A stretch of 64,000 nucleotides of DNA from Rhizodiscina lignyota. Taxonomy: Eukaryota; Ascomycota; Dothideomycetes; Aulographales; Rhizodiscinaceae. Under the pieces are notes generated by a model. It had not been told where the DNA came from, did no database searches, and saw nothing but the letters and a program-made list of their open reading frames with translations. Numbering within the stretch: the stretch's first letter is position 1; the number at the start of each line of letters is the position of its first letter. The translations under genes were made by a program, and so were the position numbers. Positions 10,186 through 22,286 of this stretch are shown in pieces. The stretch spans positions 620,001 to 684,000 of the forward strand of contig ML978127.1 of assembly GCA_010015805.1 (NCBI GenBank), in the 5' to 3' direction.

Positions 10186-11197
10186 GGAATACAATCTAAC
10201 CACTCGAGGGCAGAAAAACTCTACTTCGGAAGTTGCCGTTATGACTATATACTTATGTGAGACATGTCTTATTGGTTCGCCAAGACGATCATTAAAAACT
10301 GATTGTCTATCTATTACATGACAACTCCCGTCCAAAAGCTCGAAATTCCCCTCAACAGTGCTTCAATCAAATAATGAAATGTCATAAACCAGAAAGCATC
10401 ACACGAGCGGAATTATGCCGTGAAATGAGCAGCCATGAAGCTGACAAAATAGTCGAGTCCGATTGGCCGAGCGCCCGTAGTAAGAACGAGTTTTATTCTT
10501 CCACACGGACGAGAACACCACGGAAAGCTCGGCTAGATATATACCAGATAGTATTTATCTAAAATTCGCAGCTTCAACGTGTATAGTCTGTGTTAAGTAA
10601 GGGGCGTGTGTATCATGTCCTCGCGGAGAGTCATGTTGAAGCCACCACTTGGCAGCCAATGGGGCGGCTTGACGGGGCTTGGAACTCTAAGGCGAGGAAT
10701 TTCCCTTTCCCTCCGCCATCTTGAACAACCACAACATTACAACTTTGTTGCTACCGACGAATGTACTTTAGCCTTTCATCATCTTCCACGCTATTCCAGC
10801 CCCTTCAGACAAGTGATCTCGTTCCTGTTTCCCGTTCGCCCTTATCAATCGTATGTCTCGTCTGACGAATACGCATCTCCGGCACGGTGACAACTCCTCT
10901 ATGCTCAATTGCATTGTTCCGCGGAAGACTTAGCTTCGATATACATCATGGCGGGCCATTTCTTGAACTCCGCTTTGAAATGCTCTGAAATCTCCATGTG
11001 GAGGCGATGATTCCCGCTCGAGACTGCCGCCGGTCGAACTTCCAAAGTTGCGGGGCAATAACAATTAGGAAGCTCACATTCAAAATGAAGCCCTGAGTGT
11101 GAGCCCAGCACACGATACTCTACAATTTCCTACAACTCTAGCATTTTCACTGTGACAATATAACCAAAAAGCGTCAATCGCAAGCTAATTTGGAGCA
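10186..11197. other. Intergenic upstream of the dioxygenase gene
   Basis: Contains a degenerate MITE-like copy (about 10439-10650, listed separately). The rest (10651-11197) shows no coding frame I accept. The final 80 bases should hold the dioxygenase promoter; no GGRTAA-TTATCC activator palindrome is visible there. Confidence 0.5.
10439..10650. repeat. MITE-like repeat copy 1 (degenerate)
   Basis: Starts CTGACAAAATAG and shares ordered blocks with copies at 16538 and 19095: GTTTTATTCTT, a GAAAGCTCG-type block, ATATATACC, GCAGCTT, GTATAGTCTGTGTTAA and a right end resembling GCCACCACTTG. It aligns with them over roughly 200 bp with many differences. Confidence 0.6.
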
Positions 11198-13247: not shown

Positions 13248-16125
13248 TCACGGTTCTTGCTCGTCAATGAGAGCCAAACGAGACTGAATGAGGTCTGTAT
13301 CTTGGACACCACTATCACGGTACTGTCGCAGTACTTGTTCCCTCATCAATCGTCGGGGAGCTCGCCTTCCTGTGAACAGCTCAAATTGTGCAAAGCCCTG
13401 TTCTGGAAGTAGATCTAGCCCATCCATGGCAACCCAGCCCCGATCAACTTCCGCGCGGATCTGCTCCAGGAGTGGGGTGTGCAGGGTCTTGTATGCAACC
13501 TATTACAGTGTTAGCCGTTGTCTGTATCCGTTATGTCAAAGGGTCTCGAGGATGACAAAATAGTTGGCCGCCGGCCAAGCTGTAATGCATAAGGACGACG
13601 AGCGTTTGCACTTCAAGGTAAGCGAGACTAGCTGCGGCCCACATTTTTGTCACTCTTGGGGATTCCATTCCATACCTCTAGTACCACGCCTCCTGTTGGG
13701 CTCTTAAGCCACTGCGCCGGCATCGTAAACTTTGGCGGAGCAGGACTATCGCCAACACTGTGCGTTGGGATACAGCTGACGACAATAGTTGGTTGTCGAT
13801 AAGCTGACGGCCAAGGAGCTTCTCGCGATTCCAGAACGTGAAGTCGAACGTCTTTGAAGTCTCTGTCAATACGCCGCTCACTGGGACCAGAAACAAGCTG
13901 CTGGTTGTATTCAGCAAGGCGTTCCGCATTTGCCAGTGTCCGGTTGTGGATGAAAATATTTCTGACTCCTAGCTGCAGTAATGCGTAGACGGCAGCTCGG
14001 GCCATACCACCAGCTCCTACGACCAGTGCAGTGCTTTGCGGTCGTACCGCATTAACCGGGGAGAGTCCACGCCGGATGCAAGCTCGGATACCAATCCAAT
14101 CAGTGTTTTCGCCATAGAGTGCCTTCACCGGCCCAGCACGATTGCGCTCCTTGAGCAGGCTCAGCTCGTCGGGAATGGTCCCATCAGCGGCAAGCTCTCG
14201 GACAGGAATAAGAGTATTCACTGCGCCGATCGCCTTAGCATGGCGGCTGAGAGAATGTGTTAGAGCTATGATCTCAATCTTAAATGGCAACGTTACTGAA
14301 ACACCCCCGAAATGCGGGTCAGTGACAAGATCGTGAAGGTCATTTAGGGTCGGTGTTTGGTTCGTTCGGTAAGTGTGTGGTAAGCCACACAGTTCGTAAC
14401 CTGCATTATGCATTGCTGGAGACAAACTATAGCTGACGCTCGCGCCAAAAATATAGAAGTTCATCGGATCGTAAACGAAGCATTTTGACAAAGCTTCTGT
14501 GCATTCCCGGGCAGTAACACTAGGTTCGCTCATTCGTGGAAGGCTCTCGTGGCGGACGGAAGTGAGAGTTGGATTGAACACTAGAGATGTTTTCCCATGC
14601 CTTCCGGTATTGAAGGCGGTTACAGGTACCGCAGATCCATCTAATCCGTTGACCTTGTCCCGCAATCGTTGTACAGCGAAGTTGTCTTCAAGGCGAACAC
14701 CAGGACGACGCAGTCGCACAACATCGCATCCTAATCTCACTGCTCTTTCGTACGTGTCGACCCACCAGGCATCATCCCACTCAGCAGCTTCCTCAAGACA
14801 CGTCATGTCTCCAATTATCTTTACAGAGCCTTTGGCATCTACGATGCATTGAATTTCTGCGTCGTTCAAGTGCAAATCGACGGTCACAAACTCTGGGGCG
14901 AGACGCAAGCCGTGGTGAACAAGTTCCATGTACTGATAACCAGCAGACTGGTCCTTGGATCGGCTACGGTCGACATGGTAGATTATCGGCACGATCGTAT
15001 TCCTGCGCACTTCCGCAAAGACGCGGCTAATGACACAGATCTCCGGACTAGGAGACAAGTCTACATCGTCCCTTGTTTCGTCAATACAGAGTTCGAAGGC
15101 GTCCGATCCGCTTTCCAGTTGTTCTATGTCCACAGTGCCGCTTAGGAGTTCAAGCTCGCTGAAGCCCACCGATACAGCATAGGTGAACGGCCGAAGTTCA
15201 ACTCGGGTGTTCGAGAGAGGATATGCTGCTTCAAGTGTAGATAGGATATTTCCGGCTGTGACAAGCGCCATAAATTTGAGAAAGTGCCGTTCAGCTTTTT
15301 TCAATGTTAAGAACGGCGTGTGGAAGCGATTATCTGATAGTCGACGGGCGTCCCCCGAGGTCTCGACAACTTCCTGCTTTCCATCTGATAGATTGAAAAA
15401 CTCGTAGTTCGCACAGCTTCGAAAGACCGTTTTACTCACGCGCATCAGTTCCCTCACTTTGCGCCGTTCCAAAGTTTTCAGGTAGTTACAAACGCTCTCC
15501 TCGTCTCGAAGGACGTGTACCACTGGGTGTGATTTGCAGTAGTCCCTCAAAAGCGACTGGCAACTTCGATCTGTTGCTTCCGTACCACATATTATTATGC
15601 ATCCTCGTTCATTCTTGTGCAGAACGTCCGTTAGGACCTCCAACTGCTTTTGTTGATGTTGTAGCGGACCGTGCAGTTTTCTGTATGCCGCACTAGAGTG
15701 ACCAGTGGCTTCTTGGAAAGCGAACTGCGTCTCTATGAGTCGTCGTTGGAATACCGTGGAAGCCATGACTCCGAGTGTAGATTTGCCTGTTCCTCGGACT
15801 CCGACGAGAACGATTGAGGCTGCTTCTACGAATGTTCGACTCGATATAAACGATGGTGGCACGGGGGCGGGAGAGGTACTTGGCGAACGCGATGCTATAA
15901 TCGGTGAGTAAGAGATATTGCAGGCTGCTAGAGTATATTCATACTTAACGCGCTTTCCACAACGGCGGATCTGGAGCTCGACCTCGTTGAATCACCATTG
16001 CTTTGGTGAGCAAATCGCTTGGATAGCTGGAGTTGAGCGGAGGCAGCAGCAGATGCTCGAGCTAATCCAGATCCTCCATGATCAATTGAAGAGAATGGCC
16101 TCTTAGTGCCTGCGGCCGAAGCCAT
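13248..16125 (-). CDS. qutR: Quinate repressor QutR (QA-1S)
   Basis: 883 residues in three exons: 16125-15945, 15894-13676 and 13499-13248. It is built like the last three domains of the pentafunctional AROM enzyme: a shikimate-kinase-like domain with P-loop GVRGTGKST (residues 92-100), a dehydroquinase-like domain (about 300-530) and a shikimate-dehydrogenase-like domain ([25 protein letters not shown], then [16 protein letters not shown]). In Aspergillus and Neurospora this catalytically dead relative binds the activator QutA/QA-1F and blocks it unless quinate is present. The short first exon ([11 protein letters not shown]) fits the family. Intron 2 is 176 nt, three times the local norm, because it contains a MITE-like repeat. 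The gene is divergent from qutA with 905 bp between starts. The C-terminal exon is essential: without splicing the frame ends early. Confidence 0.92.
13550..13655. repeat. MITE-like repeat inside qutR intron 2
   Basis: About 106 bp bounded by imperfect 22-bp inverted repeats: left GGATGACAAAATAG...GGCCGC (13550-13571) and right GCGGCCC...TTTTTGTCACTC (13634-13655), matching at 17 of 22 positions by eye. It lies wholly within the intron at 13500-13675. It shares its left part with the copy at 19431. Confidence 0.7.
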
Positions 16126-16487: not shown

Positions 16488-16537
16488 AAAGCTTGGATCG
16501 GACCACCTTAGTACACCCGCGAGCCGGGATGCGAGGC

Positions 16538-16749
16538 GGTGACAAAATAGTTGAGCCGATCAATTGAAAGGCTGTAGTGAAAAACCTTTGTTCTTCAGTG
16601 AGAGCAAGAGTAGCTCTGAAAGCTCGATCGAGCATCCACCAGGCTGTATGTACTAAAATACGCAGAATTAGTGTGTTTGATCTGTGTTGATTATCGAGGA
16701 TATGCACCTCCTTCACCCTTCGTGCCTCAACCCAGCTTTTTTGTCACCC
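16538..16749. repeat. MITE-like repeat copy 2 (best-preserved ends)
   Basis: 212 bp with terminal inverted repeats GGTGACAAAATAG (16538-16550) and CTTTTTTGTCACCC (16736-16749). The interior shares ordered blocks with copies at 10439 and 19095. It encodes nothing. Confidence 0.7.
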
Positions 16750-17030
16750 ACTAGCTAGCCCTGGCCTAGCTCCAACTCCTCTTTAGCTCGAACCCCATCC
16801 CGTCAATCCATCAATCCCACATTACTCCGTATTCCCTTTGATCAAGCATTATTCTGTTGGGCGCTTCAGCATTTCGGGCTCTCTGATGCGACGCTAGCCG
16901 TATGTCATCCGGTCTTATTCTGTGTCGCTCGCGGCATCACTATTCGAACCCTCGCGAGTCTCCCGCTGTACCACTTCCGGCTCTCGAACTCAGTTCTTAA
17001 GGAAATTTCCAAGCAATTCTTATTGTTCTG

Positions 17031-19028
17031 ATGGTTGAAAAGCGAAAGCATGCCGACGGCTCGGGTGAGCCTCCAGCGCCTGTAGCCAAGAGGCAGAGAG
17101 TGTCAAGAGCTTGCGATCAGTGTCGAGCAGCACGAGAGAAATGCGACGGCATACAGCCAATGTGCTTTACCTGCGCATCTTCAAATAGAGCATGCTCATA
17201 CACCACTCCACCAAAGAAACGAGGGATACAGCCTGGATATATACGAACCCTTGAATTGACCTTGGCCTGGGTCCTTGAAAATACTACCGGCGCCGAAAAT
17301 AAACTCAGGGCTGCCTTGGCTCAAGAGTCTGTTGCTTCAGTTCTGTCTGGGAAGGACACCGATGGATCGCACAAGTTGCACAAGACATGGCGAAGAAACT
17401 CGGCATTCAAAGAGCTGGAAAGGCTCTTGGGCAAATCTGAGCATGCTTCAACCCCTGAACGTGAATCTCCTGATGAGCCCACTTCGAATGTGGACCCCGG
17501 ATCAGCAAACCCTGGTATCTCCCCACCTGCGTCGGACGGGTCTTTCACTGCAAATCTCCCACCTCATCTCTGGCGCCTGTTAGATGTGTACTATGCGTAT
17601 ACACATACTTGGTTTCCAATCCTCCAGAAACACGACATGCTAAAGTTGGCCTACGCATACGGTGATGGCGGGTTGAGGCTCACCCCAGGTGTGGAGCCAG
17701 AGCATGCTGAACTTTGGGCGCTGCTTGCAGTCGCTTCTGTGCAAGACGATGCAGTTGCTTCTGTGCATGATGATGTCGTCGCTTCTGTCTCGATATCAGA
17801 TCGAACCAGCAAAAGAATATACGATACGGCGAGGCGGCTCATTCCAGATGAACGTGGAAAGCTTTCGATAAGTCATGTGAAAGCACTCTTGCTCTTGACG
17901 CTTATCAACATAGGCTCAGAATACTGGACAGGGGCGTGGCTTCTTCTTGGGCAGGCAATCAATGTTGCTGTTGATCTGGGCCTGCAAAATCCAATTCCGT
18001 CACAACTGGACTATGACCGTAGGAAGCATGTGATACTTGCATGCTTCCTGCTGGAGTCTTTGATTTCATCACATCTTGACCGAGCCCCACGACTAGCCTC
18101 GCTTGACGTTGCATCCCTTGGACCAGTCGAGGAAGAAGGACTAGAAGAGTGGCATCCGTGGACCCCGTGCGATGGCTTTGGCGAGCACAGGGCCACCGCC
18201 AGAGACTCCACAGCATCATTATCAAGGACGCCAAGTCACTCATTAAGCATATTCAACCAGCTGCTCGTGCTGTCCAATAGCGTCCGTGGACCTTCTACAA
18301 CTCTAACTGTGAATCTTCCTTCACATCTTCGATTAACGGATTCTCGTGAGAGCACCCCTCAGCTCCTGTACCTCCACGTCGCCCATGCTTGTATTACCGG
18401 TGCATCGGATAGGGCTCAGCAATTATTCGCCGCTTTTGCCCAACAATTCGGAATCGTCGCAATGCCCCCAATATCCCATCTCTATGCCAGCCTCTTGGGG
18501 AAACAGGGGATTCCAAGTGTTTCAAACCTCGGCATTCTCAATAAGCTTCTTTTTAACCTTGCGAAGGTCTGGGGAGCTACGGCTGATGCCACTGATCCTA
18601 TTCAGGAAGAGCCAGAGACAGTTTCACCGAACATTCAAACAAACTTCATCACCGTACCGAATGTCACAGAAAGCTCGCCGCTATACACAAATGCTATCTC
18701 TATGGACCGTCGAGCGCCCACGGTAGTTAATCTTGCACAGCAAAGGTCGAGCTTGCAGGTTCCCAAGGCAGACGAAGGTCAGAGTTTTCAACGATACAAC
18801 TCACACAGTTCTGTTGATTTGGATGCGCTCTTCGATGAGCTCGCCTCATTAGATGGAACAGACAATGCGGACAACCAACCATTATTCATGCAGAATCTTG
18901 GGCTTGCGCCGAATGTCGACCTTAACGACGTCCTGGCTTCTGACTTTGGTTTCGATCCTCTGTTATCCACATACATGAGTGGCGCACCGATCGCGTCCAA
19001 CCGATCACGTAATTACCCCAATGGATGA
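17031..19028 (+). CDS. qutA: Quinate pathway activator QutA (QA-1F), Zn2Cys6 regulator
   Basis: 665 residues without introns. The binuclear zinc cluster has spacing Cys-2-Cys-6-Cys-6-Cys-2-Cys-6-Cys (Cys28, 31, 38, 45, 48, 55), preceded by the basic KRQRVSRACDQCRAAREKC and followed by PKKRGIQPGYIRTLELTLAW, the hallmark of QutA. A fungal-specific regulator domain fills the middle (about 180-400). It binds GGRTAA palindromes and turns on the cluster with quinate. It is shorter than the roughly 820 residues known for Aspergillus and Neurospora orthologues, mainly in the linker and C-terminal part. Residues near 243-262 carry a three-fold ASVxDDxV repeat. The start is chosen at the first ATG, 27 residues before the zinc cluster. 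Confidence 0.93.
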   Translation: MVEKRKHADGSGEPPAPVAKRQRVSRACDQCRAAREKCDGIQPMCFTCASSNRACSYTTPPKKRGIQPGYIRTLELTLAWVLENTTGAENKLRAALAQESVASVLSGKDTDGSHKLHKTWRRNSAFKELERLLGKSEHASTPERESPDEPTSNVDPGSANPGISPPASDGSFTANLPPHLWRLLDVYYAYTHTWFPILQKHDMLKLAYAYGDGGLRLTPGVEPEHAELWALLAVASVQDDAVASVHDDVVASVSISDRTSKRIYDTARRLIPDERGKLSISHVKALLLLTLINIGSEYWTGAWLLLGQAINVAVDLGLQNPIPSQLDYDRRKHVILACFLLESLISSHLDRAPRLASLDVASLGPVEEEGLEEWHPWTPCDGFGEHRATARDSTASLSRTPSHSLSIFNQLLVLSNSVRGPSTTLTVNLPSHLRLTDSRESTPQLLYLHVAHACITGASDRAQQLFAAFAQQFGIVAMPPISHLYASLLGKQGIPSVSNLGILNKLLFNLAKVWGATADATDPIQEEPETVSPNIQTNFITVPNVTESSPLYTNAISMDRRAPTVVNLAQQRSSLQVPKADEGQSFQRYNSHSSVDLDALFDELASLDGTDNADNQPLFMQNLGLAPNVDLNDVLASDFGFDPLLSTYMSGAPIASNRSRNYPNG

Positions 19029-19094: not shown

Positions 19095-19323
19095 ACGCCT
19101 GGATTTGCCACGCATTGAGCCCGCTTAACGGAATGGCTGCGGTAGGAGCAAGTTTTATTCTTTAGCACGAGCAAGAGCATCTATGGAAGCTCGATTGAAT
19201 ATATACCGGAGCGCATTTATCAAGCAGTCGCAGCTTTAGTATGTATAATCTATATTAACTACCGAGCATATAAATCCTCGCCGTTCGATATATTTCAGCT
19301 ACAATTCAACTGTTTTGCCACCC
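19095..19323. repeat. MITE-like repeat copy 3 (degenerate)
   Basis: Shares TTGAGCC, AGTTTTATTCTTTAG, GAAGCTCGATTGAATATATACC and GCAGCTTTAGTATGTATAATC blocks with copies 1 and 2 and ends CTGTTTTGCCACCC (19310-19323), equivalent to the right end of copy 2. The left terminal repeat is eroded. Confidence 0.6.
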
Positions 19324-19430
19324 ACTTGATGCTCTGTCGCCAGGCGCCTGTAGCTGAGTTTTTGCTATTTTACAATCCACCTGCGTGCGGCCGACTTCAT
19401 TCGCAGGCGGCAGGCCGTCAGCCCATCGAG

Positions 19431-19512
19431 GGTGACAAAATATTTGGCTGCCAGGTAAGCTGTAACGCCTAAAAGCGATCGGATTGTACACTTCAAAGGA
19501 AGTGAGACCATC
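19431..19512. repeat. MITE-like repeat copy 4 (left part)
   Basis: Begins GGTGACAAAATATTTGGC and matches the qutR-intron copy through AAGCTGTAA, ACTTCAA and GAGAC before diverging. Both copies are preceded by TCGAG. The right boundary is uncertain; a TTTGTCATCC at about 19645 could be its far end. Confidence 0.55.
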
Positions 19513-19738
19513 TCTGAAAGTTTAGCTATACGTTCTTCGGAGTGTACCAGATAGCAGCGAACCTTTGAAAAACTTGTAGACTCTGGTATTTACAGAAGCT
19601 AAACGCTATTGCTATTTAATATCTTGTAAGCTGTCGGGAACACTTTGTCATCCTCAGGATGTTGTAGACAGCCATCACGCAACGCTCTGGCCTCTCCATG
19701 GCATCCTTCGTAGCGCCCTTGTAACGCCCTCCACGTAA

Positions 19739-21442: not shown

Positions 21443-22286
21443 AGTAGATGCTGAGGGACGCCAGAGACGGCGTCGAGGTGATAGAATAGCTAGCGGCCTT
21501 TGTTACTAATAAAGCACAGAGTTTTGAACGATATGTCAAGACAACACCCCAAAACACGTAGGACTAAGCTTTCGGAAATAGTGTGGCCTCTCTTGAAGAA
21601 GTACAAGAGCTGCTCGCTCTTAGGCTGAAGCTGACTAGCAGAATGAGAGAAGATGACTTAGGGAATCGAGAACAAGTCTACAGGCACCCATGAAGACATA
21701 ATATATCTAATATGCTGGGTGCACAGAGCTCCACGTTTTCCCCAGACTTGGCGAACCGTCTGGAGAACTATTTTCAGGGTGAGCACTACTCGAATTTTTT
21801 GCACTTACCGTCTCAACCAGCTCCGGCATTTCCGCGGTCAACGCAATCATCTTGCGTGCCCATCCCCATGCCGATCCGATAATCTAAAAGATTTTCTTAA
21901 GCTCGGAAGCATCATCCTGGACCATAGGCGGAAAAGTGGTAGGAAAGTGCTAGCACGCTGGGACTAAAACAAGACCCGTCGTCGGCGCCCCGGCTTGCCG
22001 GGGACAATCATCCACCGAGAACGTCAACCACCCCTGAACATACGAGTCATGACCCTGGCTAAAGGTTTTGCCTTCGAACTTGTCCGGTCCATAATTTTGA
22101 GATGCTGGATCTGATTTTGTTCGGTCCTCGGGGGAATGAGGGCGTTGGTCGTCAACACGATGAAATTTTGGAGCGATCATCGTCATTACTTAGATGACAG
22201 TCTACGGACAAAACCCCTACGACTTTGAACTTGCTCAGTTTACAATTAATCCTTAGAGATTTGGAGACGAACCACGCAGCGTCACG
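21443..22286. other. Divergent qutD/qutB control region
   Basis: 844 bp that should carry promoters for both genes. I searched for GGRTAA-N4-TTATCC by eye and found no full match. Nothing else recognised. Confidence 0.5.

Follow-up and report, generated by a model that had tools for sequence, protein, structure and literature searches.

A nested MITE insertion in an intron of a quinate-repressor-like gene

The MITE in the second intron of qutR, a gene predicted to encode a quinate repressor, is an ordinary nested insertion. The element lies entirely inside the intron and accounts for its length, as the initial annotation had supposed. We consider it very probable that qutR already had an intron of about 55-60 nt here, and that a MITE, a non-autonomous member of a high-copy family (family A) with an internal deletion, landed close to its donor end and antisense to the gene. 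The spliceosome most likely still relies on the donor, branch point and acceptor of the older intron, none of which is within the element, so that the whole 176-nt intron would be spliced out with the element in it, and the effect on QutR would probably be nil or small. The locus offers a small, clear case in which a fungal intron takes up a transposable element and the gene shows no visible harm, and, within our sample, it speaks against family A MITEs as generators of new introns.

The gene lies at 16125-13248 on the minus strand of the 64-kb window (the whole stretch of DNA analysed), in a fungus with a 33.4-Mb genome. The joined gene model has three exons (16125-15945, 15894-13676 and 13499-13248), a 50-nt intron 1 at 15895-15944 and an open frame of 883 codons. 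The Pfam families SKI, DHquinase_I, Shikimate_dh_N and Shikimate_DH all match on 13676-15991, exon 2 holding shikimate-kinase-like, type I dehydroquinase-like and shikimate-dehydrogenase-like domains, and exon 3 carries the C-terminal part of the last of these (Pfam SDH_C, E 2.2e-12). AROM proteins are the best solved relatives of the product, with 6hqv as the top PDB match. In the AROM alignment, qutR has DMTC for the SHHD of dehydroquinase and R for the K of VIKLVG, positions that we take to be catalytic in the enzyme. A Zn2Cys6 activator gene (qutA-like, 17034-19028) is divergent from qutR, and the other neighbours are transporter, SDH-like, type II dehydroquinase, inositol-phosphatase-like and TIM-barrel genes; with this activator and these quinate pathway neighbours, the locus fits a quinate cluster and the gene fits a quinate-repressor-like qutR. 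The repressor is named qutR in A. nidulans and qutX in A. niger, according to the text of PMC12610400, and our use of the name rests on the neighbours, since related repressors such as GaaX and TanX serve other substrates (main text of PMC10512348). Two features are common to this gene and the QutR, QA-1S and QutX genes, namely the domain order of the AROM C-terminal half and the adjoining divergent Zn2Cys6 activator within a quinate-type gene cluster. The long MITE-bearing intron may set it apart from those genes as described. A third AROM-like protein of the genome (L039:973-3030) has dehydroquinase- and shikimate-dehydrogenase-like sequence and is possibly a similar repressor.

Intron 2 (13500-13675, minus strand) is predicted from sequence, with a GTATGG donor and a branch-point-like CTAAC shortly 5′ of the acceptor TAATAG. 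It had been described as 176 nt long where other introns have about 50 nt, and against the 50 nt of intron 1 it is indeed long for the gene; it is also the third longest among 21 candidate introns computed in the sequence at hand (qutR intron 2 included and one donor counted twice), which have a median of 68 nt and in 16 cases measure 50-83 nt. It does not split a codon, as had been claimed, but lies in phase 0 between codons 800 and 801. The exon 2 frame continues to 13628, and one could read the gene as ending at the stop near that position, with no intron and with exon 3 as a remnant. We find this extremely unlikely, as the SDH_C stretch comes next, in frame after canonical splicing, and gives the product a paralogue-like C-terminus. 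Against TIGR01809 (AROM-type shikimate dehydrogenase), the spliced C-terminal piece scored 41.1 bits and exon 3 alone 29.7, both below the cut-off of 196; for the read-through piece, no model was matched at E 0.01.

The element itself is a 116-bp family A copy at 13545-13660, on the plus strand and antisense to qutR, as delimited by its relatives and the family profile. It consists of the left 88 profile columns and a right terminal repeat, the middle being missing. In a direct arm test, the best 22-base inverted arms of intron 2 occupy 13549-13570 (plus strand) and 13635-13656 (minus strand) and are complementary at 17 of 22 positions, a value never reached by 200 dinucleotide shuffles or by 200 window pieces, with a maximum of 16 in either set. 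A repeat search at default settings reported no inverted repeat, probably for lack of an exact 9-base seed common to both arms. The inverted terminal repeats are common to the relatives of this copy. The element with 22-bp inverted repeats seen in the initial annotation is therefore real, with limits of about 13545-13660 in place of 13550-13655. The pentamers flanking the copy are AGGGT and GATTC, in which no target-site duplication was recognisable.

The initial annotation had left open whether the element inserted into an older intron or made one, and our results favour the first. In qutR, 15 nt on the donor side and 45 nt on the acceptor side lie outside the element, as does the branch-point motif, so that the intron without its insert measures 60 nt, typical for the candidate introns with their median of 68 nt, and still has its donor, branch-point motif and acceptor. 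At the junction, the spliced protein reads GGVVLE-VAYK and aligns without a gap to AROM, to QutB (the SDH-like neighbour) and to the third paralogue of the genome. Eight residues upstream of the junction, qutR lacks 12 AROM residues that are absent from QutB too, and a few residues downstream it is longer by 2-3 residues. Given the gap-free junction and the upstream lack common to QutB, we do not read the extra 60 nt as displaced exon sequence, and these features together with the outside splice signals suggest that intron 2 most likely preceded the element. There is only a very slight chance, in our estimation, that the element created the intron by inserting into an exon in the manner of an introner and picked up splice sites at or close to its ends. 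The three paralogues all lack an intron at this position, which fits such an origin and counts against an older intron in qutR; introners with terminal repeats, or with both splice sites taken from the insertion site, are also on record (as described in the text of PMC9860276). However, 60 nt of former exon outside the element would mean about 20 missing residues where the junction is gap-free against three paralogues, the branch-point motif and acceptor are outside the element, and just 2 of 80 copy clusters proved intronic. Scans for orthologous qutR introns in two non-fungal contig collections, one viral and one of genomes, gave 6 and 22 pattern matches, none of them a relative. Our literature search found no paper joining the qutR quinate repressor with an intron, and neither PMC12610400 nor PMC10512348 uses the word "intron" in its main text.

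It had been suggested that the repressor would be inactivated through poor splicing and the quinate pathway derepressed, a view that we consider very improbable, whether splicing is impaired outright or made conditional. By translation, a retained intron 2 would bring a stop 15 residues into the intron, and the conserved C-terminal dehydrogenase-like part would be lost; in A. niger, deleting the orthologue, qutX, increases the expression of quinate genes when the carbon source is non-inducing (text of PMC12610400), and the terminal repeats do pair in the predicted fold of the intron RNA. That fold, however, is not more stable than expected (z +0.70, with 152 of 200 shuffles at least as stable), the canonical signals are outside the element, and nothing in the sequence suggests frequent retention of intron 2. 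As single-stranded DNA, the element folded with somewhat greater stability than its shuffles, 7 of 200 doing as well (z -1.82).

The state of the reading frame also bears on this point. Family A copies have a median divergence from the consensus of 22% (85 aligned stretches), and look old and long inactive. Inflation of this age by repeat-induced mutation was considered and rejected, since C-to-T rates have no strong CA bias (0.167 at CA, against 0.212 at CG, 0.124 at CT and 0.130 at CC). The qutR copy differs from the consensus in 10 of 88 columns (11.4%), which makes it the fifth closest to the consensus over those columns, where 63 copies have a median of 18.4%. When the qutR coding sequence was randomly mutated at 11.4%, it acquired 9.4 stops on average and was stop-free in 0 of 1000 trials, compared with 12 of 1000 at 5% change and 178 of 1000 at 2%, whereas the real 883-codon frame has no internal stop. 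If divergence is a fair clock, one that depends on 88 columns and takes the consensus as ancestor, selection would have maintained qutR for most of the period that followed the insertion. This tells against a permanent loss of function through mis-splicing, though not against mild or conditional retention. It is conceivable that the antisense MITE repeats loop out the insert and make removal of intron 2 conditional, that retention tunes the repressor, and that a second MITE in the promoter between qutR and qutA adds further control, a scheme to which we give hardly any credence.

Family A has a unit of about 235 bp with ends CTCGAGGGTGACAAAATAG. With intron 2 as query, 25 matches were found in the genome, itself included; an internal 21-mer of the family gave 101 genome matches at up to 3 mismatches and none for the reversed control, and the end motif gave 285 against 3 in the control. 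The end motif also picks up a second family, B, whose own end motif gave 171 matches against 0 in the control. Family A resembles the MITE class in its shortness, terminal inverted repeats and high copy number, and most sampled copies are not between coding stretches of one gene. Its ends were not matched to any named MITE family, and no autonomous partner was found among the loci examined; facing ends 4.4 kb apart in L081 were considered as such a partner and had the appearance of two distinct copies separated by a gene-bearing stretch. On statistical grounds only, a 5-bp target duplication is suggested: over 29 full-length copies, a direct repeat of that length beside the ends reached z 4.7, the top value among 153 combinations. 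The end strings retrieved no fungal paper and one unrelated human paper in a literature search that reached few subscription papers, and family A may be undescribed so far.

Six family A or B copies are present in the window (10438-10649, 13545-13660, 16533-16753, 19115-19328, 19426-19657 and 21484-21625; profiles, E up to 0.01), all within 11.2 kb around the qutR, activator and transporter genes. The copy at 16533-16753 (plus strand, by profile) is a family B MITE with related terminal repeats, and sits in the upstream region common to the divergent qutR and qutA-like activator genes.

We also asked how family A behaves elsewhere in the genome. The sample comprised the window and 67 loci (68 sequences); 20 loci were the nearest matches to the qutR intron, and a further 40 regions were drawn out of 80 (78 motif places and 2 window flanks). 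The 97 profile matches gave 80 copy clusters, 7 of them family B, after three matches less than 300 bases from a locus end were dropped and neighbours were merged. Only two clusters, in qutR and L026, were intronic in the sense of having in-frame coding sequence on both sides together with splice signals. The caller, whose thresholds were set with these two cases already known, also made positive calls on 14 of 220 pieces taken at random from these loci, so its calls are weak when taken alone, and the MITE copies are not enriched in introns. A separate context test found three clusters between same-strand coding stretches, in qutR, L011 and L028; the latter two were read as lying between convergent genes and were not called by the intron caller. 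A coding-like stretch overlaps four clusters (L009, L026, L061 and L063), all of which score low except L026. Ascomycete introner-like elements, as described in the texts of PMC4457414 and PMC9860276, likewise place a repeated sequence inside an intron, but of our 80 clusters only 2 are intronic, and in both the splice signals lie beyond the element. Family A is not an introner family in this sample.

The second nested family A element, at L026:1780-2158, is in a predicted 379-nt intron of a GIY-YIG-domain gene. This intron measures 91 nt without the element, with 18 nt on the donor side and 73 nt on the acceptor side outside it; the GIY-YIG match is 22.9 bits for the second exon alone and 27.4 for the joined piece, with a cut-off of 22.6. 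Both intronic copies are antisense to their host genes. The family A consensus carries AAGGTAAGC, which resembles a splice donor on the plus strand of the element (13609-13629 and family copies), and both intronic copies are oriented opposite to this donor-like strand. Head-to-tail arrays of partial units were also observed, at L055:1459-1953, L044:1459-1944 and L018:2005-2436.
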